Origin: Polytrichum commune
Lineage: Eukaryota; Streptophyta; Polytrichopsida; Polytrichales; Polytrichaceae
Assembly: GCA_950295325.1 (NCBI GenBank)
Contig: OX485805.1
Location: 40,721,501 to 40,785,500, forward strand
Direction of reading: 5' to 3'
Length of the DNA stretch: 64,000 bases
Positions 2,947 through 25,482 of this stretch are shown in pieces (position 1 is the stretch's first letter; each line of letters opens with the position of its first letter). The notes under the pieces were generated by a model, which worked only from the letters and a program-made list of their open reading frames with translations, was not told the DNA's origin and did no database searches. The position numbers were made by a program, and so were the translations under genes.

Positions 2947-5900
2947 CTAAACTGTAGCATGGGCTAAGATCCCCCTTTCAAGAATTGTTTTCACCTCCAA
3001 GAAACTGAGGGTAGGCGCATGCATGAAGAGGTCATGGTCGGCCTCTAGTTTGCAGACTTGTACGTATATATAGTAAAGATGCTTACAAGGTCGGAATGGA
3101 CACCCGCGTCTACCCAGCTTAGCCATTGTCTCTTTGAACGCCGGGCAATTGCAGTCTGGGTAGGCACTGATTGAGAGATGGTAAACTGACTCCGTGGGAG
3201 CTGGTTTAGATTGCAAAGTTACAACGCATCCAAAACCGGGTTGAGGTATCATTACTACCTTCAGAATACTTGCCTTCATTGCTCTAGCGGAATCAATGTT
3301 CTGCATGTGCTTCGAACTGGCACAAGTGATTGAACGGCGCATGTTCTTTGACTTTCGTGTTTTAGGATAAACGTCCGCATTATCTGGCATTGGAACCTGT
3401 GACAGATCCGGTGGCGGTGCTGAACTGTTGAACGTGCGGCTCACAGGAACGCTTTGCTTTTGGGGAAGTTGAAATCCCGCATTCTCCAACGCCTCAATCT
3501 CGGAACGTGTGAGATTGGTCCCTATCTTCACAGGCCAAACCGACGGGATGGGAGGTCGTTCCTCGTAATCCGAAAATGGCTCTATCCATCGTCGATGATA
3601 CCCCTTCACACACCTCTCAATATCGTCAGCATAGAAAAAAAACTGCTCTACCACCTTCTGGTTGCCTTTTTGAGGGTGGGTCCAAAGGCCAGTGTATGTG
3701 GGAGCTGGTGTGCTCTTCCCGTTTTGGACGATACGGGCTGTACATTTTTTTCGAGTGACAGCCATTTGCGCCCAACAAGCCTTCGCAAAAACCTTATTAA
3801 TTCGGGCAATGTGCCATAGCTTCTCATTCACACGAGTCTCCTCCACGGCTGTCACCCGTCCAATATCTATGCCAGTTGAGGCAGGGGGCTGTGTTGGGCG
3901 TTCCACTTCCACGTGAACTTCCTCATGGATGGTACTCAAATTTTGAGCACGAGCACGTGTCACCTTCCGACCCACTCGAGGACGTGAAAAATTAACAGTG
4001 TCTGGCCTATGAGTTTCTTCTTCGGCGCCAAGGGGAAGATCCGGCTTCCGTTTCCTCGACCCAAAAACCTCAGCTCCTTCGAGGTGTGCGTTTCGAGTAC
4101 AGAAATCTTCGGCTCCGGGCATGTTCAAGACGGCTGCGTTCAGGGTAGTCGGATCCCCGGTTCGGTGAGCTCGGCGTTGGGCTGTGCGAAGTCGAAGTTC
4201 TTCTCTCGAGGGTCCAGAGCCTCCCGCTCCACCTTTGAGGTATTGAAGTACCCCACCACTTGCAGGAATGCTCTAACGTAATCGTCGACGGCTGCCACGT
4301 AGAGATCGCCACCCCTATTGCCGGACGCTTGCAACCATTTGTTGTGAACGGTCTCAGCAAGGTTGCAAGAGGGCATTTCAGCTAGTTCATCTAGAGAATA
4401 TTTCTTCTCCTATACGAAGGCAACTGTTTAGAAAATGTTCGGAAACTCAAGTGAGCAAGGAGTAGTCGTGGTGGGCCATGCCATTTAAAAGCAAAAGATT
4501 TAATATTGTTTAGATACTACATTAGACGCAGAGAAAAGAATGCAAACTTAAAGAATTAAATAATTTGAATGAAAGAGTGTATACTTACCAGTTCCATGAA
4601 TCCACCCCACTGCCTGTATCGGAAATGCCAAAACGCAAGCCAGTGGTTCAAATGGTGGAGGCCAGCATCAGAGGTGGCACCCGAAGATGTCCACCAGGCT
4701 TTGATTGCCAAGTAACGTGTTTCAGCCTCTGCCACAAACCATGCATCTTTGTACTGCATACACAATTTCTTGTGTTGATCTTGCAATTCGTGCATGATGT
4801 ATTGTTTGGTGTGTTTTTCTAGGGATTGCGCCCAGTGGAAATAACACGTTCGCTCGCAGCCTTCCATGGGTATCTTTGGGTCTCCGGATCCGTAGATGAT
4901 GCGCACAGCGTTCCAATTGGCTTGCGCACTATCAGCCATGAAACCTTTGAACTGCGGCTTGTGTATTCCATGCCTACCCATGACATGGTTAAGGTTCTTC
5001 CAGAAAACGAGTTGAGCATCTTTGTCCTCAGACTGGAAATCACAGCAAGCAATGGTGAGTACACGTTGGTAAGAGGAGTCGTACACGTGGCAGGCCATGG
5101 TGGTCCAATTGGCAACTCGTTTGACGTGGTCGAACATCATCCAGGAGTGCTCTAAATCGCCGCTAGGTTGCATTCGGCGGACAAGGTCAACACCGCTGCT
5201 AGGTCCCACCTCGGACATCTTGAATATGAAGACCTTGTCGGAGTCGTCACCTTGGCCTGGAAACATGTTTCGTTGCACGTAGGCCGCATCACTAAGCCCT
5301 CTGAGCTTAGTGATGCCATCAAGAACGCCATATCTGCGCAAATACTTGAAACTGTAGACACGGTTTTTTAAGTTAGGGGAATTGAGCTCCTTGCAGCATT
5401 GGAAGATAGGCTCTAGCTGTTCGAGAGAAAGTAAGGTGGGAGGGTCGTCTTCTTCGCGGAGCAAGACGTTACCTAAAACATCCTTGGACGTTTCCAAGAC
5501 TATTTTGGAAATGGTAGCCTGCGGGTTGCGCTCAACATGTTGTTCGATAAAATCGTCGATTATCTTCCGCGTGCCCCTATAGTCTCCTACCTTGACAGGA
5601 TGTTTATGGTTGCCTACATGGATGCAAGCACGCTCTTGCGTATCATCTCCAAAAACGTAAAAGATTTTTGCATCACAAGAAGCTACATAAACAGGAGGTT
5701 CTTTACAGATCTTACACACTAATGTTGAAGTTGGAGGTGGAGCGTCTGCAACAGGGAAAACATCTTTGGAAGAACCTTCGAACTCGACCTCGTTCACTCC
5801 ATATGCGCGTTCAAGCCGCTGCAGAAACCCACATGTGGGATTGTGGCATTGAAGATGACCTACACAGTTAGACGACCGGAATGACAGCCCCAGCGTGTTA

Positions 5901-6700
5901 CTGATGTTAGTAGTCATAGTCTTTGTCCATATATGGCCATCGTAACGTTTGTCCATACCTTCCATAGATTTAGCATTCTTATGGAGGGCAAATGGAAGTG
6001 TGGGAGGAAGAATGAAGATTACATCCCCATTGAACGACGGTGGCAGGAAATCTACAATCTCAGTACGGATGGAATCATAATTCAGCTTTTTAAGTACTGA
6101 CTTGCTTCCAGGCATACTACCCAGGGAACGAAGGGAGGGAAGAATGTTTATGAGTTTAGTAGTTTGCGAAGGTATAAGGGAAGGAGTAGTCCTACGTGAA
6201 TCTTGAGAAGATGAGGGAGATGGACGCTTAGCACTAGACCGGATTGATGGATGGGAAGGCCTCCCCTCTTCATCAGAAGAATCAGACAAATCGATGCTAA
6301 CGCGGAGACCTGGTTCGATCTTGACACGAGACAGTAAGGGGGCTTCAGTGCACAGTGTGGAGGAACTGCGAGGAGTGAGTAGGACTGTAGTCGCGTTCAT
6401 GGACTCCGACAAGCCAAAGACGCGATACCTTCCGGGCTTGAATTTCCAAACGCGAGCATTATTGTCTAACGTTACGGGCTGGACGTATAAGGAATAAAAG
6501 ACATTTCGAGTATCCGGATCGACAACATCTGTCTCTAACCACAAGCTATCAGCATCGAAACCATAACGAATGGATAGCCACTGGGGAGTGAGATCAGCGG
6601 TTCCATCAGGGCCAGGAGGTATGCATGTAGGGATAAGAGATCCAGGAGAAACAAGTTCGATGACATCGACGAGTGGAGCTTGGACAGCAGCGGAAGACAT
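2947..6700 (-). pseudogene. MULE-like transposase with SWIM zinc finger, frameshifted
   Basis: Start is taken at ATG 6700 (MSSAAVQAP), inside a longer open frame beginning at 6817. Exon 1 is 6700-4589. An intron at 4588-4410 has a GTAAGT donor and TATAG acceptor and joins in phase to exon 2 at 4409 (EKKYSLDELAEM). Counting from 6700, the DDE-type core shows Asp at about residue 541 (HVYDSS), Asp at about 590 (FMADSAQAN) and a Cys-x2-His (CYFH) at about 619-622, as in MULE transposases. The third acidic residue was not assigned. The C-terminal part has a SWIM finger at about 3080-3153 (CNC...CKH). The reading frame shifts once at 4236-4250: compared with the copy at 1-425, one base is missing between the VVGYF and GSGPSREELR blocks. 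Known family role: cut-and-paste transposition in the nucleus. The frameshift suggests a recently dead copy. Terminal inverted repeats were not identified. Confidence 0.75.
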
Positions 6701-6893
6701 TGAGAAACAATTTGACAATGTAATGGGAGAGGGAATTTGCAAAAGAGGGATCGAAAAGAAACAATGGGATATATACATGAGAGGTTGATGAAGACGTTGG
6801 ACATCCCAGACATGCACAGAATGTAGTCAGAAAATGTTTGGTTAAATATGAGAAATAATAATAACCTGTATGAACAGGATTGTGAACAATAAA

Positions 6894-7325
6894 TCATGGA
6901 GTGCTAGACGAAAATGGGGCCTTTGCCATATGGGGCCCTTTGCCATATTTGTCACCGTCATGTTTATGACAATGGTCAATCCCTAAACTACGAACTGCAG
7001 TGCATCCTGCGCAATCGAGTTTCTGACCTTTGGCACTCCTGAATATGGATCTAGAGTAAGTGCCAGGTTTAATAACACCTGCTCTAGAATATGCATGAAT
7101 CTTGAAAGTAGACTTGTTCTGTATCAGTGTTGCATCAACTGCCTGTAATGATGGAGTCTGTGGTTTAGGAACGACGACCGCCGGAGTAACTGAGCAGTCA
7201 GGTGGGTTGAGAATCTTCAGGTTGTTGACGCCTGGAGAACCATCGAATGAAAACGTGGTGTGAATTTGCGATGAACTAGGAGCACCTAATGGAGCAAGGC
7301 TTGGGAGACGTGAGTCAGTACCCAT
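6894..7325 (-). CDS. Hypothetical 143-residue protein with Cys/His cluster
   Basis: The open frame is on the minus strand with ATG at 7325. The N-terminal two thirds are Ser/Pro/Thr-rich. Near the C-terminus is a Cys/His cluster (CAGC, then IDHCHKHDGD) that could bind a metal; IDHCH resembles the zinc site of HNH/endonuclease VII-type proteins, but this is resemblance only. A TATATAAT-like box on the minus strand at about 7378-7386 lies some 55 bp upstream of the ATG, with a CCAAT-like sequence (ATTGG) closer in. It ends about 200 bp upstream of the MULE start on the same strand, so it may be an accessory gene of that element or a separate small gene. No family is assigned. Confidence 0.4.
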   Translation of the reverse strand: MGTDSRLPSLAPLGAPSSSQIHTTFSFDGSPGVNNLKILNPPDCSVTPAVVVPKPQTPSLQAVDATLIQNKSTFKIHAYSRAGVIKPGTYSRSIFRSAKGQKLDCAGCTAVRSLGIDHCHKHDGDKYGKGPHMAKAPFSSSTP

Positions 7326-7377
7326 TGGAGAAGAATATGATGAGATGACATGAAAGAAAGGGTACCAATAATCGGGT

Positions 7378-7386
7378 ATTATATAT
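7378..7386 (-). promoter_or_regulatory. TATA-like box upstream of the 143-residue ORF
   Basis: The minus-strand TATATAAT motif lies about 55 bp upstream of the ATG at 7325. The position is plausible for a short 5' leader, but the region is AT-rich, so chance is possible. Confidence 0.3.
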
Positions 7387-7837
7387 ACCTTGGGTAGACA
7401 CCAATACCCAAATACATGACAACCTATGAGATCAATTAATAGTCAATATTTATTCATGTCAATTCTAGACAACATGTTTCATGTAGGATTAGAATGTACT
7501 CCAGTAATAGTCATTACCTTATGGCCCCTAAATATGATACATGTCAGTATAGACTAATTTTCCTACGGACTAAAAAATAACTCATTCTTGATAACCTAAT
7601 ATATGCTACGCCGAAATGATGAAGGTAAACCCTAAAGGTGTATGAACCTTTTATGGAAACATATGATAATTTGAAAATTTATGGAGGCTGTCATTGTCAA
7701 GGGAGATGCGTAAATATATCAACAAATTCAAAATAGATTAGTAACCGATGTCAGTGTTGTCAGTGACCTAATCTCGGATACCGCGTTTTATTAAACGCGG
7801 GATTATAATTCGATGACGTAGCTTCCTAGAAATTAAA

Positions 7838-7843
7838 TATAAA
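7838..7843 (+). promoter_or_regulatory. TATAAA box upstream of the acidic-protein gene
   Basis: TATAAA on the plus strand lies about 100 bp upstream of the ATG at 7945, with no in-frame ATG conflict. The spacing suits a plant core promoter. The evidence is position and motif only. Confidence 0.4.
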
Positions 7844-7944
7844 GGAAAGGGATTCGGTGGACTAGGTCATTCAAATACAAGTTGTGTTGTAGTTCGGTTT
7901 AGGGTGTTATCATTGTTCTACAAATTTGTGTAGTTTGATCAGCT

Positions 7945-8631
7945 ATGGAGCCAACTATGGAGGGTACGAGTAGTAAAACAGACAAAGTGAATGAGGGAGG
8001 GCGGGGGAGGAAGAAGAAGAGAGGTGGTATAAAATTCAGTGGAGCCAAGGCTTTGCGACGGAACGCGTTGCGGAAGAGGGATGCCTCGGGTTCTTGCGAA
8101 GACGATCGAATAGTAGATGAAGTAGATAAGAACGATGAGGACGAGCCAGGAATGTTTAGAAAGACTATCGAGATGCGGCCGTTGAACTTGGATGCTGTTG
8201 TTGAAAATGTTGATGGTGAAGAAGAAGACGATGGAGGGGAAAAGGACAAAGAAATTGAAGAGCAAGAATGTAGAAGGCCCTCATCATCGAGGAGTGATTC
8301 TTTGGGATTCAAACATGACAGTGACGAAGAAGGGATCGATAAAGTTGTAAATTCCAAGACCCTAAAGCCTTGAAAGATGAGTATTAAACCTAAGTCATAT
8401 TCTACCTTGCGTTGATGTGTATAGTACGAAGAAAGTGAGACACTGGTTGGTGAAATTTTTGGGCAGCAAGACGAGCACGGAAGTGTTGCAATTGAGGGCG
8501 CACCCAATGAAGATCAAGTCGAAGAACGCGATGTGATGGACTGCAAGAAACTAGGAGAGGAAGAAGAATTAGATGAAGGATTCCTGGTACTTATCCCAAA
8601 CCCTGGAAATTTGATGTTTATGATAATTTGA
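7945..8631 (+). CDS. Hypothetical acidic protein, two exons, about 202 residues
   Basis: Exon 1 is 7945-8346. An intron at 8347-8424 (GTAAAT...TATAG, 78 bp) joins in phase to exon 2 at 8425-8631, ending in TGA. Residues about 20-50 are basic (GRGRKKKRGG, ALRRNALRKRD), a possible nuclear localisation signal. The rest is strongly acidic with Glu/Asp runs (GEEEDDGGEKDKEIEE; EEEELDEG). No catalytic motif or known domain was recognised. The intron removes the stop that otherwise ends the first frame, and exon 2 then stays open for 68 codons, which supports the model. It could be a small chromatin-associated protein or a gene carried by the neighbouring transposon. The function is unknown. Confidence 0.45.
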
Positions 8632-8953
8632 CAATGGATTAGGAACACATGTTGGGTAGATGTCATAAGGATATATTACGATTGTTTATATCGATTGTTG
8701 GTCACCTGATTATAGATGTCTTTCTTAGGCAGTTGACAATGAAACGATGTTACTCCATTATTTGCAAGTTTGACTCTATAAATGTTAACAGATGGAATAC
8801 AACCATAATATGGATGATAAAAAATACACATCCAGTAAAATCACATATGGTGATTGTGAGGGAGAGGATTGTAAGGTGGAACCCATTCCATCTTATAGTG
8901 ACTTGCAATCTAGTTCTGGTAGCATTAGAAGGGGTAGGCATCTAGTTCTCTTG

Positions 8954-9405
8954 CTGCCTGCCCGGAGGGGCGGGGCAGGGTTCGGGAGACTTTGGAACTC
9001 AACCAGCTAAAATCCGGCCCTTCACAACTTATACCGGTTTTTCCAGAATTTGTCCGGTTGCAAACTTGTTGCCATTAATTAGGACTGGCCAATATCCTAT
9101 AATTTTTTTTCGAGTGCCGGTTAATTTATTCTTCATTGTAATGACAACCGGCCAAAAACTTGGGCATGTGTTAAATAGGAGCAACACATGCCCAAGTTCT
9201 TGGCCGGTTGTCATTACAATGAAGAATAAATTAACCGGCACTTGAAAAAACATATTATAGAATATTGGCCGGTCCAAATTAATGCCAACAAGTTTGCAAC
9301 CGGTCAAATTCTGAAGAAACCGGTAGATGTTGGGAAGGGCCGGATTTTAGCTGGTTGAGTTCCAAAGTCTCCCGAACCTTGCCCCGCCCCTCCCGCAGGC
9401 GGCAG
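8954..9405. repeat. Large foldback (inverted repeat) with about 220-bp arms
   Basis: Arms 8954-9172 and 9183-9405 are nearly perfect reverse complements around a loop of about 10 bp at 9173-9182. The outer ends are GC-rich (GGGGCGGGGC against GCCCCGCCCC). The inner part is AT-rich, with repeated CCGGT/ACCGG boxes. Transcribed, it would form one long hairpin. It resembles a foldback transposon or hairpin MITE. No clear target-site duplication was found. Confidence 0.85.
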
Positions 9406-9424
9406 TGTCCCAACTCTGTTTGGG

Positions 9425-9560
9425 AGTTCGGGACGAAGGAGGCCGAGGGAAGTGGAGGTAAGGCGAGGGGAAGTCGGAGGAGGGAGGCGAGGGGACGTCA
9501 GAGGAGGGAGGCCGAGGGGAACTGGAGGTAAGGCGAGGGGACGTCGGAGGAGGGAGGCCG
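9425..9560 (+). repeat. Purine-rich GC minisatellite
   Basis: Imperfect tandem copies of a GA/GG-rich unit (ggcgaggggacgtcggagga and variants, about 30-40 bp) lie between the foldback and the 170-bp satellite. The strand is almost purely purine with embedded ACGTC boxes. No coding sense is apparent. Confidence 0.7.
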
Positions 9561-9564
9561 ACGT

Positions 9565-12030
9565 TAGATTTTTCAAAAATGGAGAGACCAGAGGTGACAT
9601 TTTTCAAAACGTTTTTTTTTTCTTCATATTTGATTTGCAATTACAATAGGGACATGAGGTTAGGTCAGTTAGGTTCATGAGCTCCAAAGGGTTTTTTTTC
9701 TGGGTTCCAGAGTTTGCTCTTGAAAATGAAGAGACCCCTGCGCTAGCGCAGGGGTCCTTAGATTAGATTTTTGAAAACATTTTTTTTACTTGATATTTGA
9801 TTTGCAATTTCAGTAGGGTCATGAGGTTAGGTCAGTTAAGTTCATGAGCTCCAAATGGTTTTTTTTTTGGGTTCCAGAGTTTGCTCTTAAAAATGGAGAG
9901 ACCCCTGCGCCAGCGCAGGGGTCCTGAGGTTAGATTTTTGAAAACATTTTTTTTTCTTGATATTTGATTTTCAATTTCAGTAGGGTCCTGATGTTAGGTC
10001 AGGTAGGTTCATGAGCTGCAATGGGTTTTTTTCTGGGTTCCAGACTTTGCTCTTAAAAATGGAGAGACCCCTGCGCCAGTGCAGGGGTCCTGAGGTTAGA
10101 TTTTTGAAAACATTTTTTTTTTCTTGATATTTGATTTTCAATTTCAGTAGGGTCCTGATGTTAGGTCAGGTAGGTTCATGAGCTGCAATGGGTTTTTTTC
10201 TGGGTTCCAGAGTTGCTCTTGAAAATGGAGAGAGCCCTGCGCCAACGTAGGGGTCCTTAGGTTAGATTTTTGAAAACATTTTTTTTCGCTTGAAATTTTG
10301 AATTGCAATTTCAGTAGGGTCCTGATGTTAGGTCAAGTAGGTTCATGAGCTGCAATTGGTTTTTTTCTGGGTTCCAGAGTTTGCTCTTGAAAATGGAGAG
10401 ACCCCTGAGCTGGGGCATGGGTCCAGAGGTGACATTTTTCAAAACGTTTTTTTTTTCTTCATATTTGATTTGCAATTTCAGTAGGGACATGAGGTTAGGT
10501 CAGTTAGGTTCATGAGCTCCAAAGGGTTTTTTTTCTGGGTTCCAGAGTTTGCTCTTAAAAATGGATAGACCCCTGCGCTAGCGCAGGGGTCCTTAGGTTA
10601 GATTTTTGAAAACATTTTTTTTTTCTTCATATTTGATTTGCAATTTCAGTAGGGACATGATGTTAGGTCAGTTAGGTTCATGAGCTCCAAAGGGTTTTTT
10701 TTCTGGGTTCCAGAGTTTGCTCTTGAAAATGGATAGACCCCTGTGCTAGCGCAGGGGTCCTTAGGTTAGATTTTTGAATTTTTGAATTTTTTATTGATAT
10801 TTGATTTGCAATTTCAGTAGGGTCCTGATGTTAGGTCATGTAGGTTCATGAGCTGCAATGGGTTTCTTCCTGGGTTCCAGAGTTGCTCTTGAAAATGGAG
10901 AGACCCCTGCGCCAGCGGAGGGGTCCTTAGGTTAGATTTTTGAAAACATTTTTTTTTTGCTTGATATTTGATTTTCAATTTCGGTATGGTCCTGATGTTA
11001 GGTCAGGTAGGTTCATGAGTTGCTATGGGTTTTTTCCTGGGTTCCAGAGTTGCTCTTGAAAATGGAGAGACCCCTGTGCTGGCGCAGGGGTCCAGAGGTG
11101 ACATTTTTCAAAACGTTTTTGTTTTCTTCATATTTGATTTGCAATTTCAGTAGGGACATGAGGTTAGGTCAGTTAGGTTCATGAGCTCCAAAGGGTTTTT
11201 TTTCTGGGTTCCAGAGTTTGCTCTTGGAAATGGAGAGACCCCTACGCTAGCGCAGGGGTCCTTAGGTTAGATTTTTGAAAACATTTTTTTTGCTTGATAT
11301 TTGATTTGCAATTTCAGTAGGGTCATGAGGTTAGGTCCGTTAGGTTCATGAGCTCCAAATGGTTTTTTTTTTGGGTTCCAGAGTTTGCTCTTGAAAATGG
11401 AGAGAGCCCTGCGCCAGCGCAGGGGTCCTTGATTTTCAATTTTAGTAGGGTCCTGATGTTAGGTCAGGTAGGTTCATGAGCTGCAATGGGTTTTTTTCTG
11501 GGTTCCAGAGTTGCTCTTGAAAATGGAGAGACCTCTGCGCTGGCGCAGGGGTCCTTAGGTTAGATTTTTTAAAACAATTTTTTTTTGCTTGATATTTGAT
11601 TTTCAATTTCAGTAGGGACATGAGGTTAGGTCAGTTAGGTTCATGAGCTCGAAAGGGTTTTTTTTTTGGGTTCCTGAGTTTGCTCTTGAAAATGGAGAGA
11701 CCCCTGCGCTGGCGCAGGGGTCCTTAGGTTAGATTTTTGAAAACGTTTTTTTTTTGCTTCATATTTGATTTTCAATTTCAGTAGTGTCCTGATGTTAGGT
11801 CAAGTAGGTTCATGAGCTGCAATGGGTTTTTTTTGGGGTTCCTGAGTTGCTCTTGAAAATGGAGAGACCCCTGCGCCAGCGCAGGGGTCCTGAGGTTAGG
11901 ATTTTGAAAACATTTTTTTTTTGCTTGATATTTGATTTGCAATTTCAGTAGGGTCCTGATGTTAGGTTAGGTAGGTTCATGAGCTGCAATGGGTTTTTTT
12001 CTGGGTTCCAGAGTTTGCTCTTGAAATTGT
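9565..12030 (+). repeat. Satellite of about 14 units of about 170 bp, each with a GC palindrome
   Basis: A unit of about 165-170 bp repeats about 14 times. Each contains a pyrimidine-rich block, a TTGATATTTGATTTGCAATT-like block, an AGGTTCATGAGCT box, GGGTTCCAGAGTT, and a palindrome with arms GACCCCTGCGC and GCGCAGGGGTC. In the first unit the palindrome is a perfect 24-mer (9733-9756). The palindromes recur near 9745, 9910, 10075, 10235, 10400, 10570, 10740, 10910, 11078, 11240, 11410, 11535, 11705 and 11875. One unit near 11410-11535 is shortened. Variants of the box (GAGCTCC against GAGCTGC) alternate, suggesting at least two subfamilies. The array stops just before the ParB/methyltransferase-like gene. 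Confidence 0.9.
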
Positions 12031-12271
12031 TGACTTTGCTCTTGAAATTTGTGTATTTATTTGTGATTTCATGATGGCGCATTTTTTCTAATCTATATTG
12101 GTTTAATTCTTATGTGCATGCTTCTATAGATAGAGTGCTTTGAGCGGAGATTGACTACAACATTGTGTTCTCCAAGTTGCTTTGCCGTTTTTCCACTTTC
12201 TTAGCTAGTCGTCGTTTATACTACTTCATACTTTTTCTAAGTGTTTTGTGTTTCGTTTACCTACCTTTCAG

Positions 12272-15200
12272 ATGACACTATCCGATGTGCCCATGCCTGA
12301 TCAAGTCCCACCTCCGTCGATAGATTCCGTGGAGGAGGATTCTAGCATTTCCCCGGACAGTCAACATTCTCGAAGCCCAGATGTTGCCGAAGTGGAAGAG
12401 GATGTTCCTCCGAATGTCCCATCCTCCGATCATCACACTTTCGATATTAGCCATCATGTGGCGGAAGCCGATACCATACAAGATGCCACTCAAGAAACGC
12501 CCGATTCAAGCGACAAACGCTCAGGTAAACCCTTACTTCCTCATGGTGGTGTTGAACTTGGCATTGTTCACATGCCCCCTCATCTGCAGGACAAGGACCC
12601 CATGTGGAGCGCAAATGAGATGAGATTGCTGCAGAAGAGTGACTACAATAGCGTCATCTCCAGTCTTTGCACCTAACCCATTAAGAAGTCTCGATTCCTA
12701 ATTCCTCTGTGTCGTCTCAAGACCTACCCGAAGGTTCGTCCAATTGTCGATTCGGACGTCGAGATGTTGGCGAATGAGTTTGTCAAAGGGTATCGAGAAG
12801 GAGATCGAATTTTGTATGTGTCTCCTTTCGACATCGCGGACAAGGACCTTGCGGTTCGAGTGGATGACGCCATCTGGTCTAACCCGCTATGGAAGGCTGC
12901 TAATGATGAATTCGAAGAGTACTTGTCCTCTGATACTGATCTCCATCAGTTTCGGAATAAATACTTTTACGTTTACGAAGGCAATCACCGCGTGACGGCG
13001 TGGATGGGTTATATCCACAAGTACCATTCCAATAATCCTGACTGGTACATTTCTGTTGACTGTATTGTTCTCGACGCACGTGGGGAATGCTCAAGGCTCC
13101 TCAACGCCATGAACGATATCAACTGGTACGTATAGTTCCAAATCCATTTGAATTAATTTCATATTGCATTTATTCAGGGAAGCCTTGTTTTAATACTCAT
13201 ATCGTCACTCACAGGTCGACGGAACATGATCATGTTCAAGACAGTACTATTGCCAAGTTGCAAAGAATTCGAACCTTCGGCGCATTCAAACTTTCTCATT
13301 TCAAAGGTCTTATTAGCAAAGAGGACATGACTATTTGCGAGGCTTATAAACCCCGTGTACCGTCATGGTATCCACTCACCATGGACATTTTTGTGAAATT
13401 CCTTCACGCGGTAAGTTTTCTAAAGTTATGTGCTTATCGTTTTCATATTATGAATTGCATCATGCGTTTCTTGCATCTCAATTATTTTCGTACAGAGACA
13501 ATGCGCTGCTGCATCCGACGCTGCTTGCTCGAACTATTACGAGACCGTGCCCGAGAATAAAATGACTGGTCCTGGAGTCTGGAGCGCGATGGACAAGGCC
13601 ATCACGAAGTGTGTCAAGTATTGGCGCAGCCAAAGGTTTGACAAGATGGTTGCAATCGCCAACCCAGCCAATGGAGAGTTATTTGAACAAGAGGTATTTT
13701 CAACTCTCAACTCTCAACTCTCATCTCACCTCTCAACTCAACTCTCAACTCTCAACTATCAACTCTCATCTCAACTCTCAACTCCCAACTCTCAACTCTC
13801 AACTCAACTCTCAACTCTCAACTCTCATCTCAACTATCAACTCCCAACTCTCAACTCTCAACTCAACTCAACTCTCAACTCTCAACTCAACTCAACTCTC
13901 AACTCTCAACTCGCAAATTTTCTAATATAAATATCAATTTTCCACCCAGCTCAATAAACACTATACTAGCGGGAAATCATTGGACTTGACCGTTGAGCGT
14001 CTTCATAAAATTGAAACCACCAAGGTCCATCCAGACTTCAAAGGAAAATGGTTGCAATTGTGGAACGGAACGGACGAGGAATGGGCAGCCTACCGATTTC
14101 CTCTAGATCGTCCAATGAAGGACAAATTCCTCGACGCCTGGTTGCCAAGGGCTTCTCTCTGGTCTCAGGTATGACGATACTTACTTCCTCTAGGCTCTTC
14201 ATTTTTAATCCGTTGTAATCGTCGTTACTTCTAACACCCATCGTTTCATAATGTATGTCAGTTGTCTACTTTCCTTAATGACCACATCGACAACTATGTC
14301 GCTAAACTTAAGATCAACATTGAGTGGAGCTCCGTTGTTCTCAAGCCGGCGGAATACGTGGAGAAATGGAGGTCTCTATTGTGGAAGAAGGCTTTCCCCT
14401 TCTACCTCTCGGAAAATGCAAGCCCAAGGTTTCTGAAAGGTTCAGACCTCCTAAAGATTGAAGGTGGAATTTTAGCGGGCCACTTGTTTTACAGGTTTGT
14501 ATGATTTGACTTCTTGTTTGATTCAGTGTTCTCTTTGTCTCTATCACCCTTACTAAATGTAACGCATATATGCAGGTACATGAAGCAAGAGCTCATCGCC
14601 AAACGTGCTCTTGCGGCTTGGAAAGTTCCGGCTCATGTTGAGCTCAAACCGTCTACCCAAACGCCTATTGATGAACTTTGGACCGAAGACCAACGCAATC
14701 GATTTCCCAATGATGTGTTGCTCACAGGTGGTTGGTTCCTCGAGTGCCCACCAAACTTCGATCCTGAGGAGGAGAAACACCTCGTCCCTGTCCCGGAACC
14801 ATCTGCAGGAGGAGCGGCTCCTATGGTCACTGACTTAAACGACGACGACGAAGAGGAGGCAATTCAGCCTGAACCTGCTCCGAAGCCAAAAGTTGAACGT
14901 CGAGGGAAGGTTCGTTCTCGCGATGGTTCCGTTGTTGCAGCCTCACCTGCAGGAGTTCAAATTCCGGCAGGACCTCCTTTGGCTTCGACTCAGACTTCGC
15001 AACGCACGGTTTCTAATCCGCCATCACCTCCACGTTCCAACTTGGATGTTCAATCTAGCCAAACTCATCATGTCACACACTCTGGCCGTGGTGTACCACC
15101 CCCGAAAGGTGTAGGTGTCATTTCGTCTTCGCCGTTTAAGACGACCCTACCGATGTTTCTTGAGCATGGAAACTTCTGTGCCTTGCTTAACCAGTCTGAA

Positions 15201-16647
15201 CACCAGAAATTCATGGATCGGCAACTTGTCCGTATCGTAGACCACATTATCAAGGTCACACAATCCCATATCTCACTAACACTATCAATTTGACAATTTT
15301 CTTGGACTAGTGAGGTTTTTTATTATCGGTAACTCATGCTTTCCACTACTCTTATTCATACAGATCGGGGTCGGCCATACTTATCCTTGTGAATCGATGC
15401 AAATGCGGCCTAGGCATCCTGGAATTGATCTCGTGATTGTTGACGCTCCCGAAGACTTGGTCGTGCCTGTCATCTCCCCCATGTCCGTACCATCGTGGAA
15501 CAAGCGAGAGATAGACTACTTTGACCAACTCTTCGCCTTCGCAGATTGTCACTTGACCGATGACGGAGTTGTTCTACTCTTCCATCCCAAGGACCGTCGA
15601 ATCGAGAAGAAGTTAGATAGTAAAATCAAAATCTATGATTTTACGATTGTCCGGGATTGGTGGGGCTATAATCCCATTCCCATGGCCTCCTCCCTTCCAC
15701 ACCAGAAAGAGGTATTATCTTTTATGTTCATAATTTGAATTTCTCAATCCGACAATCAGTTTCAATATCTACTTATCCTTGAGGTTGTCTTACAGACCCA
15801 TAACTTCAACATTAAGGTCTTTGCACGCCTTAGTTCCAAGTTCCGCACTCGCCGATTGCGACCACAGTTCGTACAAATGGAGATCCTTCCTGAAGAGCGC
15901 GACGACTTGACGAACTTCACGACAACCGAGTCCCAACTTCTACGCCCTAGCGGACTTCCTTGGCGTGGCTTGCGTGAGAAGGACCCATCCTTTGTTCAGT
16001 GCTTCATCAAGTGTCTTACAGACGAGCGTGATATCGTCTGCGACTGGAGCCCTAGTACAGGTTTTCAATCTCTCCCTTCATCGTTTACAACAGCTGAAAC
16101 TGAATTCCACTTTCTAAATTCCGTTTTCCAAACTGCAGGTGCTTCTGTCATTGCTTGCCAACGTTCAAACCGACACCTCATCGCGTTGGAGCCGGATTCA
16201 GAAATCTTTGAGGCGCTTCTCAAGCCTTACGTGGATGCGATCCCGCAACCAGAAGAGCGCGCGGATTCAACCACAGACTCTGATTCTGAGGAAGACATTG
16301 CGCCAAAGAAGAAGAAGGGTCGCAAGTATTGCGGTGCGTCTTAACTCCATGTCTTAAGTCTCTCAAACATGTAATGTATTCATAGAATTTGTCATGCTGA
16401 CTTTGTTTTATTGTTTAGTGACGCAGGTCTCGCACGACGTTTGATCCGCCACGCTGATGTCTACATGAGTCCTCCTACTTCGTTCGCCTTACCTTCATAT
16501 GCCGAACGTATAGCACAGGATTTCATACGCGCCCCATCTCCAATCCTTTCAGATTCTCCACGTCAACTTTTCAACCCTACAGTGCTTAGATACATGGATG
16601 TCGAGGCTGATCAATGTGACCAGAGTTTCGATGTTGGTTCACCTTGA
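12272..16647 (+). pseudogene. ParB-like / beta-class DNA methyltransferase-like fusion, ten exons, one stop
   Basis: Exons: 12272-13125, 13215-13410, 13496-13693, 13950-14168, 14262-14494, 14576-15254, 15364-15711, 15796-16060, 16139-16333 and 16427-16647. All introns are GT-AG and all junctions keep phase, giving about 1135 codons. One in-frame TAA at 12674-12676 (codon 135) breaks it; an ATG at 12764 follows. Residues about 165-280 are ParB-like with YEGNHRVTAW at 235-244. A Ser/Pro-rich linker lies in exon 6. The C-terminal part has the beta-class methyltransferase order: motif IV position LVIVDAPED (DAPE 820-823), motif V-like LTDDGVVLLFHP, then CDWSPSTG (991-998) where DPFxGSG is usual, then the motif II acid in ALEPD (1015). 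KKKKGRK (1054-1060) may be a nuclear signal. ParB-methyltransferase fusions are known from bacteria and phages. The altered catalytic motifs make enzyme activity uncertain. ATG 12272 directly follows an acceptor-like TTTCAG, so an upstream exon is possible. Confidence 0.7.
13698..13918 (+). repeat. Intronic minisatellite, CTCAACT unit
   Basis: A tandem array of the 7-base unit CTCAACT with variants (CTCATCT, CTATCAACT, CTCCCAACT and a five-base ACTCA form) fills most of intron 3 (13694-13949) of the ParB/methyltransferase-like gene. It is pyrimidine-rich on the coding strand and lies about 30 bp upstream of the CACCCAG acceptor. It produces long open frames by chance that are not genes. Confidence 0.9.
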
Positions 16648-16726
16648 TCATGACTATCCATATGTTTGTTTCTTTTCTCTCGCCACGTGCATAATGTAGT
16701 CATTTCAAATGGCCATTTTTTTTTAA

Positions 16727-16732
16727 AATAAA
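16727..16732 (+). promoter_or_regulatory. AATAAA polyadenylation signal
   Basis: AATAAA lies about 80 bp downstream of the TGA at 16645-16647, next to a T-run. It suits the 3' end of the ParB/methyltransferase-like transcript. Confidence 0.45.
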
Positions 16733-18464
16733 ACATCTACAAGTTTCTTTGTGTCATAGCTATTGTAGACTTGTCAAAGAAGTTCAAAGAAGTTGAAGTT
16801 TGAAAGTTTGAGTTAAGCCATTTGCACTGAAATGCATGTGCACACTTCAAACTTGAACATTGAATTGACTCTATCTAACAAAACCTAGTAAGGACATGTC
16901 TTCGGTTTTTATGTCAATTGTATATAAATTGTTGAAGTGCATTTTGTTTATTTTAAAGCTTAGAAATATATACATATATATTGTATTCTTCCATAAATGC
17001 TACCGTTGTTGAACCCTAGTTTCAACTCATTTCTTCAATTGGATAATCTCACTAGAAGGACAATGCATTTCCTTCAATGGTTATTTTGCATTTTTTAAAA
17101 TATGAATAGCAGTTTAACACAAAAAAATAAGTTTTATTGCCTCCAAACACCCGTGGGGCGTTTGGTTATGTTTATGGGCTCATGCTGCCAATTTTAATTG
17201 CAGCATTGTACTAACTGAAAAAGCTGAATGATTGCCAACCCTTAAAAGTTGCCTAAGTTCAGAGGGGGCCTTGGCGAGAATAATAATGAAAATTCTTGTT
17301 TATACTCCATCTTTAGTCGTTTCTTAAAGAAGCAACCTGTCATAGAATATTTTAATCTCCTTAACGAGGTAAATTCTCCATTTAAGTACTAAGTTGAAGT
17401 CCATATTTATGGTGTAAATATGGTCAAGTGCATCATATAATTTAGCATATAGTTCTAGCATCAATGTCAAAATTTGTGATGTATGGGAGGGAATTATGAA
17501 AATAAGGAGTGAGAATTAAAACTCAAAACATCCATTCTTTAGGGTTTTGAGATATAAGAAGCAATGTCAATAAGGAGGTTAATACAAGAGACTTTATAGT
17601 ATATTGCATGGGAGAGTCAACAATTTAAATAAGTTACATTGGAGTGTGTTATTTGAATACATTTTTTCGAGGTGGCACCTATTCATAATTAGTTTGTATA
17701 GTCTAGATAATGTATGGATGAAAGTTATGCTCGTACGTGATAATCACCCTTTTCTAGCCACTTCAAAAGAGCCATGTGTCAAGAGGTTTTGGACTTAAAG
17801 TAGACGTGCTTAATTCAGTTGCTTATCTTAATGAACACCTATCTTTGAGTGGTATGTGGTTAGATGTAGCTACAAAAATGGAAACCCAAACAAATAAAAA
17901 AGATCGGACTATATACTCTATAGTATGATCCCCATCCTAGACGCAATACCTAATGAACATATTTGAGGGGACCTACCTACATGACCGATTAACAAGCACA
18001 AGAATATTCACTTGTTGGATTGTATAAACTTCCCCATTTAAATTATTGTTTCGAGGATGCTAGCCCTAATTACGCCCTTAGCCTTAAACACTAAAACAAA
18101 TTTGTGAATTAATTAAAACACAATTTCATTTCAACCTTGAACGGTCCTCATTTAAATCACCCTTTCATATAAATGATGACATCAGCCCTAATTTCACTAT
18201 ATATATAATAACAAAAATTTGCAGTAGGACCCCTTCCACGGATTTGGGGTACTCTTTTCCCTAAAAATATACATTTACAATTTTCTCCGGACCAAATTCA
18301 GTGGTAATAGGATCCTTATGTTTCAATAAATTTTTTAAAAGCGAGCGGAGAAATTCACGAAAACATGACGCTCACCGCTCTACGCTCATGCTGTAACTTT
18401 CCCCCTCATTATGTCACTTAATGGCCTAACTACCCCCCCTCTACACTAATAATGCTAACTGCCC
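16733..18464. other. AT-rich spacer without recognised genes
   Basis: There is no supportable gene and open frames are 64 codons or shorter. The 3' LTR of the downstream minus-strand retrotransposon would be expected here, but nothing matching the candidate LTR at 25483-27399 was seen. A minus-strand polypurine-like tract (18432-18443) is the only possible remnant. Confidence 0.5.
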
Positions 18465-19775
18465 TCAGTTAGTATGATATACTTTAAGACGATTGCCATT
18501 GATGCGAGTAGCTAGGGGTCGGCCTTGAAAATCTTCTAGGTCGCACGAGCCATTGTCGTAGGCCTTAACCACCTTATAGGGTCCTTGCCAACGAATTTTA
18601 AATTTCCCTGGAAATTTCTGGAAACGACTATCGTAAAGTAAGACTAAGTCTTTTTCAGAAATTATTTTGTTTTTAAGCTTGCTATCGTAATATGTTTTAC
18701 GCCATTTTTGGATAGCAACCGTATTAAGGTATGCTTGACCACGTATTTCATCCAATTTCTCTAGCATTGCTATTCGTTCGTTCAGTGACTCTGAATTGTC
18801 TAGGCGTTCTTCCAATGCTATGCGTAAAGAGGGTAATTCTAGCTCAATGGGTAGAATTGCCTCTTGTCCATATACCAATTGGAATGGGGTGAATTTTGTG
18901 GTAACCTTGTAGGCTGTCCGATACGCCCATAAGGCGTCTAATAACTTAACATCCCAATCCACCATAGAGCCTTGGACGGTTTTGGTTATAATTTTACACA
19001 AAATTCCATTTGTCTTTTCTGTTTGACCGTTTGCTCTCGGGTGGTATGGTGTTGTGAGTCGATGTTTAATTTTATACTTCTCCGTTAGCAATTTAATGAC
19101 ATCGTTCACAAAATGAGTACCTCTATCACTAATCAACTCTCGTGGGCATCCAAAGCGTGCTAAGATATTAGTTTTAAGAAACTTGGCAACTGTCTCTTTA
19201 TCATCACGTTTAGTGGCTTTAGCCTCAGCCCATTTAGTGGCATAGTCTGTAGCAACTAAAATGTAACGATGACGTCCACTCTTACTAGGGGGGTTAATTG
19301 GACCCACAAAATCTATCCCCCATTTCTCAAAGGGCGCTAATGCTAGAATAGGGTGTAAGGGCATAGCGGACGTGCTTGTGGGCTTGCCGATTCTTTGACA
19401 CGCGTCACATTGTCTAGCATAAGTGACACAGTCGTTAAACAAGGTGGGCCACCAGTACCCGGCCTGTAACACTTTTCTAGCAGTGACATTGCTTGCAAAA
19501 TGACCTCCTGCAGGATCACTATGACATCCCAAAAGAATTAAGGGTATTTCTGAACTCATAATACAACGTCTTAGTACACCATCTTTGCCCTTTTTATACA
19601 ACGTGTCGGCAATGATCGAGTATGGAGCCGCTTTAAATATTAGACGCTGTTGTTGTTTCTTAGAGAGTCCTTCAGGAAATGTGTTGGTTTGTAAGTAATT
19701 AACTATCTCAGCATATTCAGGAGACACCTTTTCAATGAAAAATAGATCAGCATCAGGGAAGGAGTCATCAATGGG
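18465..19775 (-). pseudogene. Integrase part of the Ty3 polyprotein
   Basis: This part is in the same frame as the upstream RT/RNase H, separated by one TAA at 19776-19778 (context DALGT-stop-PIDDSFPDAD). It shows an HHCC zinc-binding region (LLGCHSDPAGGH ... CDACQ) and a DDE core with WGIDF, then a second Asp in ISDRGTHF, and a Glu in ANGQTEKTNG. A GPY/F-like module follows (RWQGPYKVV) near the C-terminus. The protein ends at LKVYHTN with no chromodomain. Known role: insertion of the cDNA into the host genome. Length and motifs look full; the preceding stop separates it from the rest of pol. Confidence 0.9.
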
Positions 19776-22700
19776 TTATGTTCCCAACGCGTCGCTTAAC
19801 CGTGATAAGTGGTCTGTGTTAGCATGACTCTTACCAGGTCGAACTTGTATGGTAAAATTGAACTCTTGTAATAGTAAAACCCATCTAGCTATCCTCCCAC
19901 TCAATTGGGGTTTGTTTATCATGTATTTTAGGGCATCATGATCTACGTGGAATACGAACTTATACCCTAATAGGTAATGTCTGAATTTTTGTACTGAGAA
20001 GATCATTCCTAAGGCTTCTCTCTCCGTGACTGTATAGTTACGCTCGGCTTGGACTAGCTGACGACTAGCAAAGTATATGGGGTGATCGTGACCTTTCTCA
20101 TCCTTTTGACTTAGCACAGCTCCAACCGCTACATTTGACGCATCCACATATACTTCGAAATCCTTCTCCCAGTTAGGTGCCACTAATATTGGCGTAGAGG
20201 CTAGTTTCTTTTTAAGGGTGTTAAAAGCCTCCGTACACGCCTGAGTCCAGACGGGTGGGGTATCGGTCCTCTTTAACAACTCAGTCAAGGGCATTGCGAT
20301 GACCGAGTAGCGAAAGATGAAACGACGATAGTATCCGGTGTGTCCTAAAAAACCCTTGACCTCTGAAACGGTGGTTGGTAAAGGCAATGAAGCAATAATT
20401 GCAATTTTCTCTGGGTCAGTGGCAACTCCTTGCTTTGATATTATATGATCCACTAACCTACCAAAGGGTACTAGGAATACTGACTTTGCTGTATTGATAG
20501 AAATCCCCACTTTCATGCATTCATCAAAGCACTCTTGAAGGTGTTGTGCATGTTTCTCTCTTGCACTATACACTGCAAAGTCATCTAGAAAGACTTCCAT
20601 CGTGCGATGGAGGTATTTCTGAAATGTATTAACTCCTAATCTGGAAAAGGTCCCAGGGGAGTTACACATTCCAAATGGCATACGGGCATGTGCAAAGACT
20701 CCCCATGGTGTGGTAAATGCAGTTAAGGGACGGTGGGGTGGATATATGGAAATTTGGTTATATCCTGAGAATCCATCCATAAAGGAATAACAATCATAAC
20801 CCGCTACTTCGTCCAACATATTGTCTGTGAATGGTAAAGGGAAGTAGTCATTTTTGGTGACATTGTTTAACTTCCGATAATCTACACATATCCGTAGTTT
20901 ACCATTTTTCTTGGGTACTACGACTATGGGTGACACCCACTCACTGTATGGGATAGGGTAAATTATATCGACTTCCAATAACTTATCCACTTCTTCCTTA
21001 ACCAATAGGGAATACTTTGGATTCATCCTGTACTGTCTTTGCCGAACGGGAGTTGTTCCTTCCTCTAATACAATCTTATGCTCACAAATCTCTAGAGGTA
21101 CTCCTCTCAAATCTTTATACGTCCATGCAAAGACTTTAATGTTCCGTTTAAAGAAATCTCTCCAAAACTTCCACTCGACATCTGTTATTTTCTCATAGAC
21201 TTTGATAATGCGGGGTGTGTCATTATCACTCAAGTCCATGTCCTTACACACATTCTTAACAACATAATTCTTAACGGGTTGGTCAGACTCAAACATGGTA
21301 GACTCCCATTTCTTAGCCAACTCATCTTTAACCAGTATTCGAGGTTGTGCCTCTTCTTGCAGAATATGCACTAGTTTTAGTTGGTCAAACTTAGGGGTTC
21401 TTGTATTGCTGACCCTGTTTACCGGTACGGTATTCTGCCATGCTAAAATAGCATCATCAGAATCTCCATCCCCAAGTGCACAGAAATATTCTCCCATTCC
21501 TATGGGGCCATACTGAAAGGATTTGTCATTTACTCGATGTATGGACTCACTAACAGTAGTCTCTCTCTCCGTTTCATACCCATCATCACTGGTGAATTCA
21601 GTCTCCTCTTCTTGGGTCTCACCATGATATTGAGTAGGAAATAAGGGTAGAATTATTTTCTTTAACCCACTTCCAATAGTCAGTGTACCCTTTCCCCAAT
21701 CCTCTTTGGCTTGGGCATCTAGTAACCAAGTGCGTCCAAGAAGACCTGGATAAGACTGTACACCGTCCATTGTTTTAAAAACAACATAATCAATCTTGTA
21801 CTCAATATTGGCTACGAGAGTTGGAATTTGTTCCAGTACTACTAAGGGTTTCACTCGACTGCTATCTGCCATTTTTAATATGATGGTGGTAGAGACTACG
21901 TTAGATATGCCTAACTCGTTCATGGTTTCCACATTCATCAAATTGACACTTGATCCCGTGTCAATTTGGAATCCTGGTATAAGAGCACCTCCTATGATGA
22001 CATCAACTGTTGGGGCTCCTGGGTCTCTACTTAACGTAATGTCGTGTACCATTGCCGGTTTAGGCCATCTACGTATCATGGATGAACTCAAGGAACTACG
22101 ACATTGTGGTGCAACAACCAACAATTGTTTCATTGTGATAGTTGGTTGTATTTTATCTAGATCTTCCATGATATCATAGGGTTTAAGATCTTTAGATAAC
22201 ACCATTGTTCGAGATGATCTAGATGATGTTGTCTTAACTTTAGGCCTTTCTCTTCTTGCAATGGTCTTTAGACGGGGTTGAAGAATATTAGTGGGTAAGA
22301 CAGGTGCATGGTTGAAAACTGGAGGAGCGTTGACAACATGTGGTGATGGAAAGTAAGCCTTCTCTGGAATTATCGTTGGCACAACGTTAGCTTCCACAGT
22401 TGTTTTATCCTTTGGAGTTCTAATCAAGGGTGCTTGGGAATATTCAGAAAGACTTGTCTCCACATCACTATGTTGTTCATTAAACCTCTCGGTGCTAGAT
22501 CCATTGTGTTGTATTAAAGGTGGTTTTCGGGATCTAGTGGTCACTACACTCACCTCCTCATCTAATTTCTTAGAGTGTTGAACTCTATGAACATTACGAT
22601 CTTGTCTTTCTTCCTCTTGTATGGTCACATGCTTACCCTTCTTCCAATCCCTATCGGATGGTGGACCCTCCTTCCGGGGTTGGTCACACTCGGCTGTAGG

Positions 22701-23672
22701 ATGTCCTGCCTCTTTACAATTCCCACACAATGGGATATATTGTTGAATCTTTCTAGGATTGGGACAATCCCCTGCATAATGACCTATCTCTCCACATCGG
22801 AAACACACTACGTACTGATTAGGCATAGGTGTCTTATAATTTTGGGTGCGGGGGTTATATGGAGGACCCCTCCAATTTGGTGGTTGGTTGGTATCACCCC
22901 AAGTTGGTCGATTCCCAAAACTAAGAGGCACTTGCCGACGGTTAAAATTTCTTTTGGGATTATATCCTGCGTTGGGTCCATCGCCCATTCGCTCTTGTTG
23001 CCAACGTCGTGACTGATTGGTGTCTATTTGGTTGACTGCACGACTTCTAGACAAATTCCAACAGTCATTGACCGAATGATTCCCTCCGCAAAAGGTGCAT
23101 TTAACTCTCAAACCCTTTGGAGTGGGACACTCATTGGGTAAATGACCATGACCTTTACAATTATTACACCACACATTGGTTCTTTCCTCACTTGGTTGTG
23201 GTCGTTTATTAGCTCCTCTGGTAATTTTGACTTCCGAGTCTGCTAACTTCTTGGTTATATCCATAAGAGCTAACTCTTGGGATGTAGATTGAGCAACCGG
23301 TGGAGGTTTTAATATGACCTTGGGGGGTTTAAACAAATCTGCGCTAGGGTGTTTGAACTGTGTGGCATCTATCATTGGCTTAGCACCCGGGTATGTTAGA
23401 GATTGACCAGGTAAAACATGATAGTAAGTCTGATCCTTCAGGGGCCGGTCGTAGAGGTCATAATTGTAATTCTCAAAAGTATATTGATCTTCCACACGAG
23501 ACTCCTCCCAAGCTTTTGCTAAATTAAATGCATCCTGTGCAGTAGCTGGGGTACGCTCTCTCACATATAATTTCAACTCAAAAGGGTACAATCCTCCTAT
23601 GAATATATTCCTTAAGAAATTGTTGGGAATTTGGTGCACACCCATTCTCAACAATATATCACTCATTCTTCC
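19776..23672 (-). pseudogene. Gag C-terminus, zinc knuckles, protease, RT and RNase H
   Basis: One long open frame of about 1296 codons, in frame with the gag segment upstream. Four CCHC-type knuckles are visible: CNNCKGHGHLPNEC (about 23128-23172), CTFCGGNHSVNDC, CFRCGEIGHYAGDC and CGNCKEAGHPTAEC (about 22690). The protease has DTGSSVN (near 21950). RT has LRICVDYRKLN, then FMDGFSGYNQI and the catalytic FLDDF (about 20580-20592). RNase H has YVDAS, a Glu in VTEREALG, and HVDHDAL. The frame ends in TAA at 19776, where related pol proteins continue into integrase. Known role: reverse transcription and processing of the element. Confidence 0.92.
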
Positions 23673-24416
23673 TCAATAACTGTCAACAACCTCGCTTATA
23701 CCCATACGAATTGTCCTCAATCTTTCCATCAGACTGTTTTCAAACCCCAAGGGTCTGAAGTAGACAAGAAATGCATCTTTAAGGGCATCCCAGTCGGCAA
23801 ATGGTGTTTGGCAGGAATACCATAAGAATGCATTCTCTTGCAACGTTGCTGCAAATACCTCCATCATTTTGTTCTGAGGTACACTATTTGCAGCACATGC
23901 AATCTCAAATTTCCTCACATGGACATCAGGGTCTGTCCCTGGTCTACCCTGAAAATAGGGCAAATTCACTACACTATTAATTCGAGGTGGATTAGCTGCC
24001 ATATTGAATAATGGTGCTACGTGTACTGGTGGAGTGTATGGTGTAAATAATGGGTTGCCTTGTACATTAATATTTAAACTGATATGAGGAGATGGGGTGC
24101 GTTCATAAGCAGTAGCCCACAATGGGGGAGTAGATGAGTCCTCTGTAGCGAATAGAGCTTTTGGGGACCAAAAATCTCTCTCACCACTTGTTGTAGGTCT
24201 ATCTGAGGATGTTTCACGTTCACCTTCTGTAGTATCACCAGAATCTCCCTGCACCACCTCTAAAAATGGTTTAACCCAGCTTCTTCTCTTTTCACGTAAT
24301 TGTCGTCTATATTCTCTAGCTGCCGCTCTATCTTCTCTAGCTTTAGCGTTAGCTGCCTTCCTCACGGATGCAGTTTGAGAATGAGACTTTTCATGAGCGG
24401 GTTCCTGTTTGACTTC
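23673..24416 (-). pseudogene. Gag core of the Ty3 element
   Basis: The frame continues from the leader segment past a TAG at 24417-24419; ATG at 24365 (MRKAANAKARED) is one possible start. The N-terminus is basic and Arg/Ala-rich. The retrotransposon gag core is recognisable at ADWDALKDAFLVYFRP ... MERLRTIRMG. It ends in TGA at 23673-23675 in the context VDSY-stop-GRMSD, where gag proteins usually have Trp, so TGG to TGA is the likely change. Known role: capsid-like particle assembly. Confidence 0.8.
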
Positions 24417-24908: not shown

Positions 24909-24922
24909 TAATTCGTCAAGAA

Positions 24923-25405: not shown

Positions 25406-25460
25406 CGACCATTTGTTATTAGTTCCTTCCCAATTTAACCTTAAAAGACGACCACAACCT

Positions 25461-25478: not shown

Positions 25479-25482
25479 AAAA

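Follow-up and report, generated by a model that had tools for sequence, protein, structure and literature searches.

The closest described counterpart of the gene considered here lies in Sola1-1_Ec32, a 21.5-kb transposon of the brown alga Ectocarpus, which is described as encoding a 1104-amino-acid ParB-like plus N4/N6 methyltransferase protein opposite its transposase (PMC12477816, in its sections on this element). The same sections cite green and red algal cases (Iyer 2011, Petroll 2025), and their authors propose that proteins of this sort bind the transposon encoding them and modify it. A gene of this kind was identified in a 64,000-nucleotide stretch of the moss Polytrichum commune (assembly GCA_950295325.1, contig OX485805.1, positions 40,721,501–40,785,500 of the forward strand), which is hereafter called the window. 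It lies within a 15,904-bp transposon, and we consider it rather likely to be the accessory gene of a two-gene moss DNA transposon that acts on the DNA of its own element. Because ParB-like plus N4/N6 methyltransferase genes of algal transposons are already published (PMC12477816, same sections), the kind of gene is known from algae and the initial annotation, which presented it as the best candidate for an undescribed system, went too far; the land-plant variant is new. No description from a moss or another land plant was found in the top-ranked results of a literature search whose scope excluded most subscription journals, and these results included no paper on a 4mC enzyme of Marchantia. 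One paper combining ParB, moss, and methyltransferase (PMC3493329) was rejected as a coincidence of abbreviations.

That the gene belongs to a transposon is practically certain from its dispersed copies, their common ends, and their target-site duplications, which bears out a possibility named in the initial annotation, a gene carried by an unknown transposon. The 408-Mb genome, nearly all of which is held in seven contigs of 42–78 Mb, contains 19 DNA matches to exon 1: the window itself, five at 98%, ten at 85–88%, and three near 70%. The matches at 98–100% number six and are located on five contigs. When the 30 kb around six exon 1 matches was compared with the window, five were near-identical (~98%) and one, denoted c6b, was 88% alike. 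Four of the five near-identical copies align to the window from 2500/2501 to 18404–18410. For the fifth (C2), only the tandem array is matched upstream and the match ends at 15174, and c6b aligns from 2492 to 18404 with internal gaps. The element is delimited as follows.

2501–18404, no strand assigned: complete element of 15,904 bp, whose left end reads GGGCGTTGCTAGGG... and whose right end reads ...TAACTTTCCCC, defined by the shared ends of the copies
2501–2529, plus strand: left terminal inverted repeat, imperfect, with CATGAGCGTAGAGCG at 2515–2529 that recurs inverted at 18376–18390
18376–18404, minus strand: right terminal inverted repeat, whose last 11 bp are TAACTTTCCCC

The two ends are thus imperfect inverted repeats sharing GCATGAGCGTAGAGCG, and the same last 11 bp close the window copy, five other copies, and two elements of a divergent family, f3 (C3:48.37 Mb) and f7 (C7:23.42 Mb; L034–L037 for both), whose left ends lie beyond the stretch compared. 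Of the six copies for which both ends were read, five are flanked by target-site duplications of 10 bp, a different one for each copy (ACGAAACAAT, CTGATTTCCA, GTATGTGCGC, CCTCCGTAAC, and ATTTGCATTC). The window copy has complete ends and no such duplication, as its flanks at 2491–2500 and 18405–18414 are unlike; it has therefore probably been rearranged later, possibly by recombination between copies. Elements f3 and f7 are 99.4–99.6% identical over at least 15 kb, which indicates recent movement of members.

The second gene of the element is transposase-like and runs on the minus strand from 6826 to 2950.

4559–6826, minus strand: main open frame of the transposase-like gene, 756 amino acids, with conserved aspartates in a DDE-like setting (by eye)
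2950–4272, minus strand: downstream frame of 441 amino acids, probably of the same gene, with a SWIM-like CxC...CxH at ~3079–3153 (by eye)

In f1, a further divergent element, the CxC of the SWIM-like motif is degenerate, and a stop interrupts the frame. The transposase-like frames match no Pfam family above chance. Mutator-like elements (MULEs) make target-site duplications of about 8–11 bp, and the 10-bp duplications fall within this range. The genome was searched with the MULE domain PF10551 (150 of 271 candidates scored), and among the 142 genome matches listed none lay at the window element or at the fetched copies. A MULE assignment by Pfam was rejected, as no listed PF10551 match lies at the element and its transposase frames gave no Pfam match of that kind.

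The pairing of the two genes recurs across the genome. Searching with the transposase frame, in which 59 of 2354 first-look candidates were scored, gave 60 listed matches: 25 at 91–100%, 34 at 58–60% (26 of them without a stop), and one 33-amino-acid fragment. For the ParB-like exon, 150 of 1187 first-look candidates were scored and listed, all with E <= 8.2e-42, and 131 of the 150 contain no stop. A listed ParB-like exon lies within 30 kb of at least 44 of the 59 transposase matches, head-to-head in 42 of the 44 cases and at a median distance of 8.3 kb. In 1000 runs of random placement, 1.3 such pairs arose on average and never more than 6, and 44 is a lower bound since for either gene a fraction of the candidates was scored. 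Element f1 holds such a pair, with 58% amino-acid identity for the transposase and 54% for the ParB-like part; the 20 kb read around f3 and f7 gave no match to the transposase.

Reconstructed from the sequence, the gene model comprises ten exons and nine GT-AG introns of 78–256 bp at 12272–16647 on the plus strand, whose phases join into 1135 codons, counting an internal stop and leaving out the final one.

12272–13125, plus strand: exon 1, ParB-like domain, with the stop at 12674–12676 and the box YEGNHRVTAW at 12974–13003
13215–13410, plus strand: exon 2, matched in f1, f3, f7, and L043
13496–13693, plus strand: exon 3, matched in f1, f3, f7, and L043
13950–14168, plus strand: exon 4, from the gene model and the alignment of P0001
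14262–14494, plus strand: exon 5, from the gene model and the alignment of P0001
14576–15254, plus strand: exon 6, low-complexity linker (dN/dS 0.77), from the gene model and the alignment of P0001
15364–15711, plus strand: exon 7, methyltransferase motif IV DAPE at 15442–15453, from the gene model and alignments to methyltransferases
15796–16060, plus strand: exon 8, motif X/I region with DWSPST(G) from 16042, from the gene model and alignments to methyltransferases
16139–16333, plus strand: exon 9, motif II ALEPD at 16183–16197, from the gene model and an alignment to methyltransferases
16427–16647, plus strand: exon 10, from the gene model and the alignment of P0001

The junctions of exons 3–10 are supported by the protein P0001 of Ceratodon purpureus, which aligns across them at 49% over 803 positions with gaps mainly in the linker. 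Exon 1 ends at the same place in P0006, a protein of a 2 kb contig, and in the divergent elements f1, f3, f7, and L043. Two more Ceratodon proteins from other contigs match the methyltransferase-like domain at 60–61%, as P0001 does, and the fern protein P0007 (Adiantum capillus-veneris) matches the ParB-like half at 28% (E 6.6e-8). The ten in-phase exons of about 1135 codons that had been read initially thus agree with the rebuilt model, and the closest named proteins, being from Ceratodon, accord with the source having been called a probable moss. The initial reading was incomplete in that an in-frame TAA at 12674–12676, codon 135 of the window copy, had gone unmentioned and the gene is one of many copies. 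All six other copies compared have a sense codon at this place, and P0006, which ends at the end of exon 1, is open there. A short intron hiding the stop was ruled out because the codon sits in alignable coding sequence and because of these six sense codons; attempted joins, with frames examined by eye, also ran into stops. Judged from its sequence, the gene is real, but its window copy is broken by an in-frame stop. Interruptions were found in 11 of the 12 gene copies inspected, two of which (c2 and c6b) were read over exon 1 only and have a stop in it; one copy is uninterrupted. Intron 3 (13694–13949) consists mostly of a 7-bp tandem repeat, TCAACTC, in about 31 copies, and is ~140–150 bp shorter in copies c7 and c6a.

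The C-terminal domain resembles beta-class amino-methyltransferases. The best family matches of the Ceratodon proteins are phage DNA methyltransferases (PHROG, E 2.5e-5 for P0001), and the window domain matches PHROG methyltransferases at E 7.6e-5. Among solved structures, chains of DpnA-type enzymes come closest, without significance. A profile of seven moss sequences was aligned by hhalign to five phage enzymes with a probability (P) of 96.4 and E 1.1e-9 over motifs X-I-II, compared with at most P 0.7 (E 0.077) in 60 column shuffles and P 0.9 for the reversed profile. The segment IDLxxxD-x-P was laid over motif IV by a less strict hhalign run and by MAFFT. Motif IV reads DAPE in the window and Ceratodon, DIPE in f3 and f7, DVPE in f1, and DVPD in L043, so that the canonical [DNS]PP[YFW] occurs in no family read and an acidic residue replaces the aromatic one. 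The GxG of motif I is kept in f1, f3, f7, and L043; in the window and Ceratodon it is STG or NTG (SxSTG or SxNTG), with the first glycine lost. The domain is hence, as far as these alignments tell, a conserved derivative of a beta-class amino-methyltransferase with a non-canonical active site, because of the acidic residue in motif IV of every family and the degenerate motif I of the window family. Since D-x-P-[E/D] stands at motif IV in all families read, canonical amino-methylation has probably been lost or altered, and we regard canonical N4/N6 methylation by this protein as unlikely. The motifs quoted in the initial annotation are present, and the beta-class motif order and fused architecture which it proposed are borne out. 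Its DAPE and DWSPSTG are candidates for motifs IV and I, the first without an aromatic residue and the second degenerate in this family. The N6_N4 methyltransferase named there was confirmed as a profile similarity (the hhalign result above), not as a match to PF01555, for which the Ceratodon proteins stay below the cut-off (E 0.0024). Searching the alignment of this domain against IMG/VR and GTDB gave 38 and 15 peptide-pattern stretches, none confirmed by tblastn.

In the N-terminal half, six sequences carry [YW]EGNHR..AW without variation, namely the window, P0006, f1, f3, L043, and the fern protein P0007. This GNHR-type box is what we take to be the ParB/sulfiredoxin-type motif. A sub-significant profile match falls at the right place (phrog_1033, E 0.53), phage P1 ParB did not align (hhalign P 0.1), no phage match of this half was found at E 1, and P0006 gave no plasmid match at E 1. 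The box noted initially was upheld, whereas a significant ParB profile match was not obtained. An alignment of this half yielded 14 pattern matches in IMG/VR, none of them confirmed. The ParB name is accordingly used as a lead, one strengthened by the fact that the algal counterpart is called ParB-like by its authors (PMC12477816, in the description of that protein).

Just upstream of the gene lies a tandem array containing a palindrome.

9592–12026, no strand assigned: 167-bp units repeated in tandem, upstream of the ParB-methyltransferase gene, from a repeat search
9733–11889, no strand assigned: 14 copies of the 24-bp palindrome GACCCCTGCGCNNGCGCAGGGGTC (<=3 mismatches), none in 100 shuffles

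An array in this position was found in all four families read, with units of 167 bp in the window group, 127 bp in c6b, 75 bp in f1, and 94 bp in f3 and f7. Eight of the nine copies submitted to the Tandem Repeats Finder (TRF) contain one, the other being c6a, in which none exceeds the threshold. Array length varies within the window group, c6a having fewer than two units and C2 at least 40, with 92 palindromes counted in 30 kb of C2. Similarity between the 167- and 127-bp units is confined to a core of 49 bp (84%), and this core contains the 24-bp palindrome. An apparent, far better conservation of the palindrome arms than of the rest of the unit was withdrawn as an artefact of unaligned units. 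Two other repeats were observed inside the transposon. One is a 450-bp near-palindrome (8952–9404, 89% self-complementary), across which the match to c6a breaks off. The other is an 88-bp stretch in the middle of the element (8747–8834), which recurs inverted in f3 (15317–15404, 84%); in f3 and f7 it stands close to the right end.

Ratios of nonsynonymous to synonymous substitution rates (dN/dS) were estimated by the Nei–Gojobori method from small counts. Between an uninterrupted copy and L040, a member of the 87% group, dN/dS was 0.31 over 1080 codons, with 0.16 for the ParB part, 0.27 for the middle, 0.77 for the linker, and 0.16 for the methyltransferase part. Two other members of the 87% group gave 0.33 and 0.36 overall, one of them with 1.82 in 11 linker codons. 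Between subfamilies, both conserved domains thus show purifying selection.

The protein is predicted to serve its element as an accessory factor that binds DNA. The tandem array upstream of its own gene (palindromic in two families) would be recognised by the ParB-like half together with the middle region, and the methyltransferase-like half would act at the array in cis, keeping the element expressed or competent for transposition. Such a role would be comparable to that of VANC in VANDAL elements, by analogy and not by descent. Following this analogy, binding to the element's own array is a tentative proposal that we put at slightly below an even chance, and an action on host silencing is more tentative still. 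Several observations weigh against the accessory-gene reading as a whole. Elements f1, f3, and f7 lack the palindrome, and their units hold no significant one (p 0.88, 0.14, and 0.09). In the window array, the palindrome is hardly better kept than the rest (95.8% versus 91.8% elsewhere, with 96.2% for the best outside stretch), and in c6a a single palindrome occurs, with no array exceeding the TRF threshold. The ParB-like half matches no ParB model of Pfam or NCBIfam. Synonymous divergence from L040 is uneven, about four times higher in the ParB part (0.29) than in the methyltransferase part (0.07) over 12677–16230, a pattern that points to recombination between subfamilies, or conversion between elements, and makes the dN/dS estimate less secure. 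Close copies show relaxed selection (0.44–0.78 overall), as is expected because copies decay. Fifteen of the 59 transposase matches have no listed ParB-like exon within 30 kb, with 150 of 1187 candidates listed. Furthermore, a working methyltransferase is predicted for the brown-alga protein by its authors (PMC12477816, in the same description).

The alternative that survives best, though doubtful, is a working amino-methyltransferase, in which the ParB-like half binds its own element and N4-methylcytosine or N6-methyladenine is placed to mark it as active or to protect it. Motifs X-I-II are conserved in the beta-class domain, the GxG for S-adenosylmethionine is kept in f1, f3/f7, and L043, the Asp and Pro of motif IV are invariant in the sequences read, and selection between subfamilies is purifying, all of which agrees with an enzyme such as that proposed by the authors for the algal proteins (PMC12477816, same passage). 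The aromatic residue of motif IV is however Glu or Asp in all families read, and the motif I glycine is lost in the window family and Ceratodon; rotifer N4CMT lost its activity when Ala was put in place of the Ser and Tyr of its SPPY (PMC8885841, in its account of the mutant). Rather unlikely is a partition-like control, in which a ParB-like protein fused to a methyltransferase-derived domain, the active site of which is rebuilt with an acidic residue for the catalytic aromatic one, would bind a fast-changing parS-like (centromere-like) array next to its gene and override host silencing in cis, with a new chemistry or as an S-adenosylmethionine-binding pseudo-enzyme. A transposition cofactor, needed for end recognition, synapsis, or excision and not for epigenetic state, would fit the recurrent pairing with a transposase gene across families 58–60% alike. 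As every array read adjoins the accessory gene, kilobases from the ends, this proposal appears improbable. Very improbable is a passive cargo captured by the transposon and functionless for it; most single copies do carry lesions of their own, but dN/dS is 0.16 per domain between two subfamilies and the same pairing is found in anciently diverged families. A domesticated host gene standing by chance in repeat-rich DNA, which the ten exons and the relatives in Ceratodon might have suggested and which the initial annotation had pictured as transfer followed by intron gain, can practically be dismissed, since it is contradicted at this locus by near-identical dispersed copies, common ends, and target-site duplications, and 11 of the 12 inspected copies (two over exon 1 only) are interrupted.

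The remainder of the window contains other mobile and repeated DNA, including a second element of the same superfamily.

1–388, minus strand: fragment of this further, divergent element, whose DNA is 92.5% identical to f1

A Gypsy-type retrotransposon coding region (18468–25504, minus strand) with integrase, RNase H, reverse transcriptase, and a weak gag match starts 64 bp past the right end of the transposon. About 4.5 kb is duplicated piecewise between 29474–33926 and 58083–64000 at 82–91% identity, including 144-bp leucine-rich-repeat arrays, and the first duplicate is adjoined by an NB-ARC gene and a protein kinase. A DDE_1 transposase fragment of another DNA transposon lies at 51351–51932.

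Compared with described systems, the methyltransferase-like domain shares the order IV...X, I, II and D-x-P with beta-class amino-methyltransferases of phages such as Agrobacterium phage Atu_ph07 (L001–L005). The Atu_ph07 enzyme is 22.8% identical over 84% of the domain, with a tblastn E of only 0.01. Unlike the moss gene, these five phage genes are short and single-domain, with a canonical D-[L/P]-P-Y and GSG. N4CMT of bdelloid rotifers is likewise a bacterial-type beta-class N6_N4_MTase domain in an intron-bearing nuclear gene of a eukaryote. It differs in its SPPY motif, its proven activity, and a chromodomain in place of ParB, and the sections of PMC8885841 that present it do not assign it to a transposon. 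VANDAL elements of Arabidopsis resemble the moss element in encoding a second protein and in non-coding tandem repeats which vary between related elements and in copy number. In the relevant sections of PMC5735166, VANC carries DUF1985, neither a ParB nor a methyltransferase nature is ascribed to it, and anti-silencing is experimental there, whereas here it is suggested by analogy. The natural variants of the moss protein, array, and ends constitute a set for testing the role of such an accessory protein. If these proteins act on DNA, the transposons of mosses would contain a system of bacterial type for modification or anti-silencing. The closest likeness is to Sola1-1_Ec32, as judged from its description in PMC12477816. 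Both have a ParB-like plus methyltransferase gene of similar size (1104 amino acids there, 1135 codons here) on the strand opposite the transposase, inside a giant element (21.5 versus 15.9 kb). The host here is a land plant, and a DDE-like/SWIM-like transposase-like protein and 10-bp duplications stand in place of Sola1. The D-x-P-[E/D] of motif IV and the tandem, partly palindromic array were found here and may be shared, as the algal likeness is judged by description. The ParB-methyltransferase genes of transposons are thereby extended from algae to land plants, and in this moss they occur in high copy number and with recent movement.

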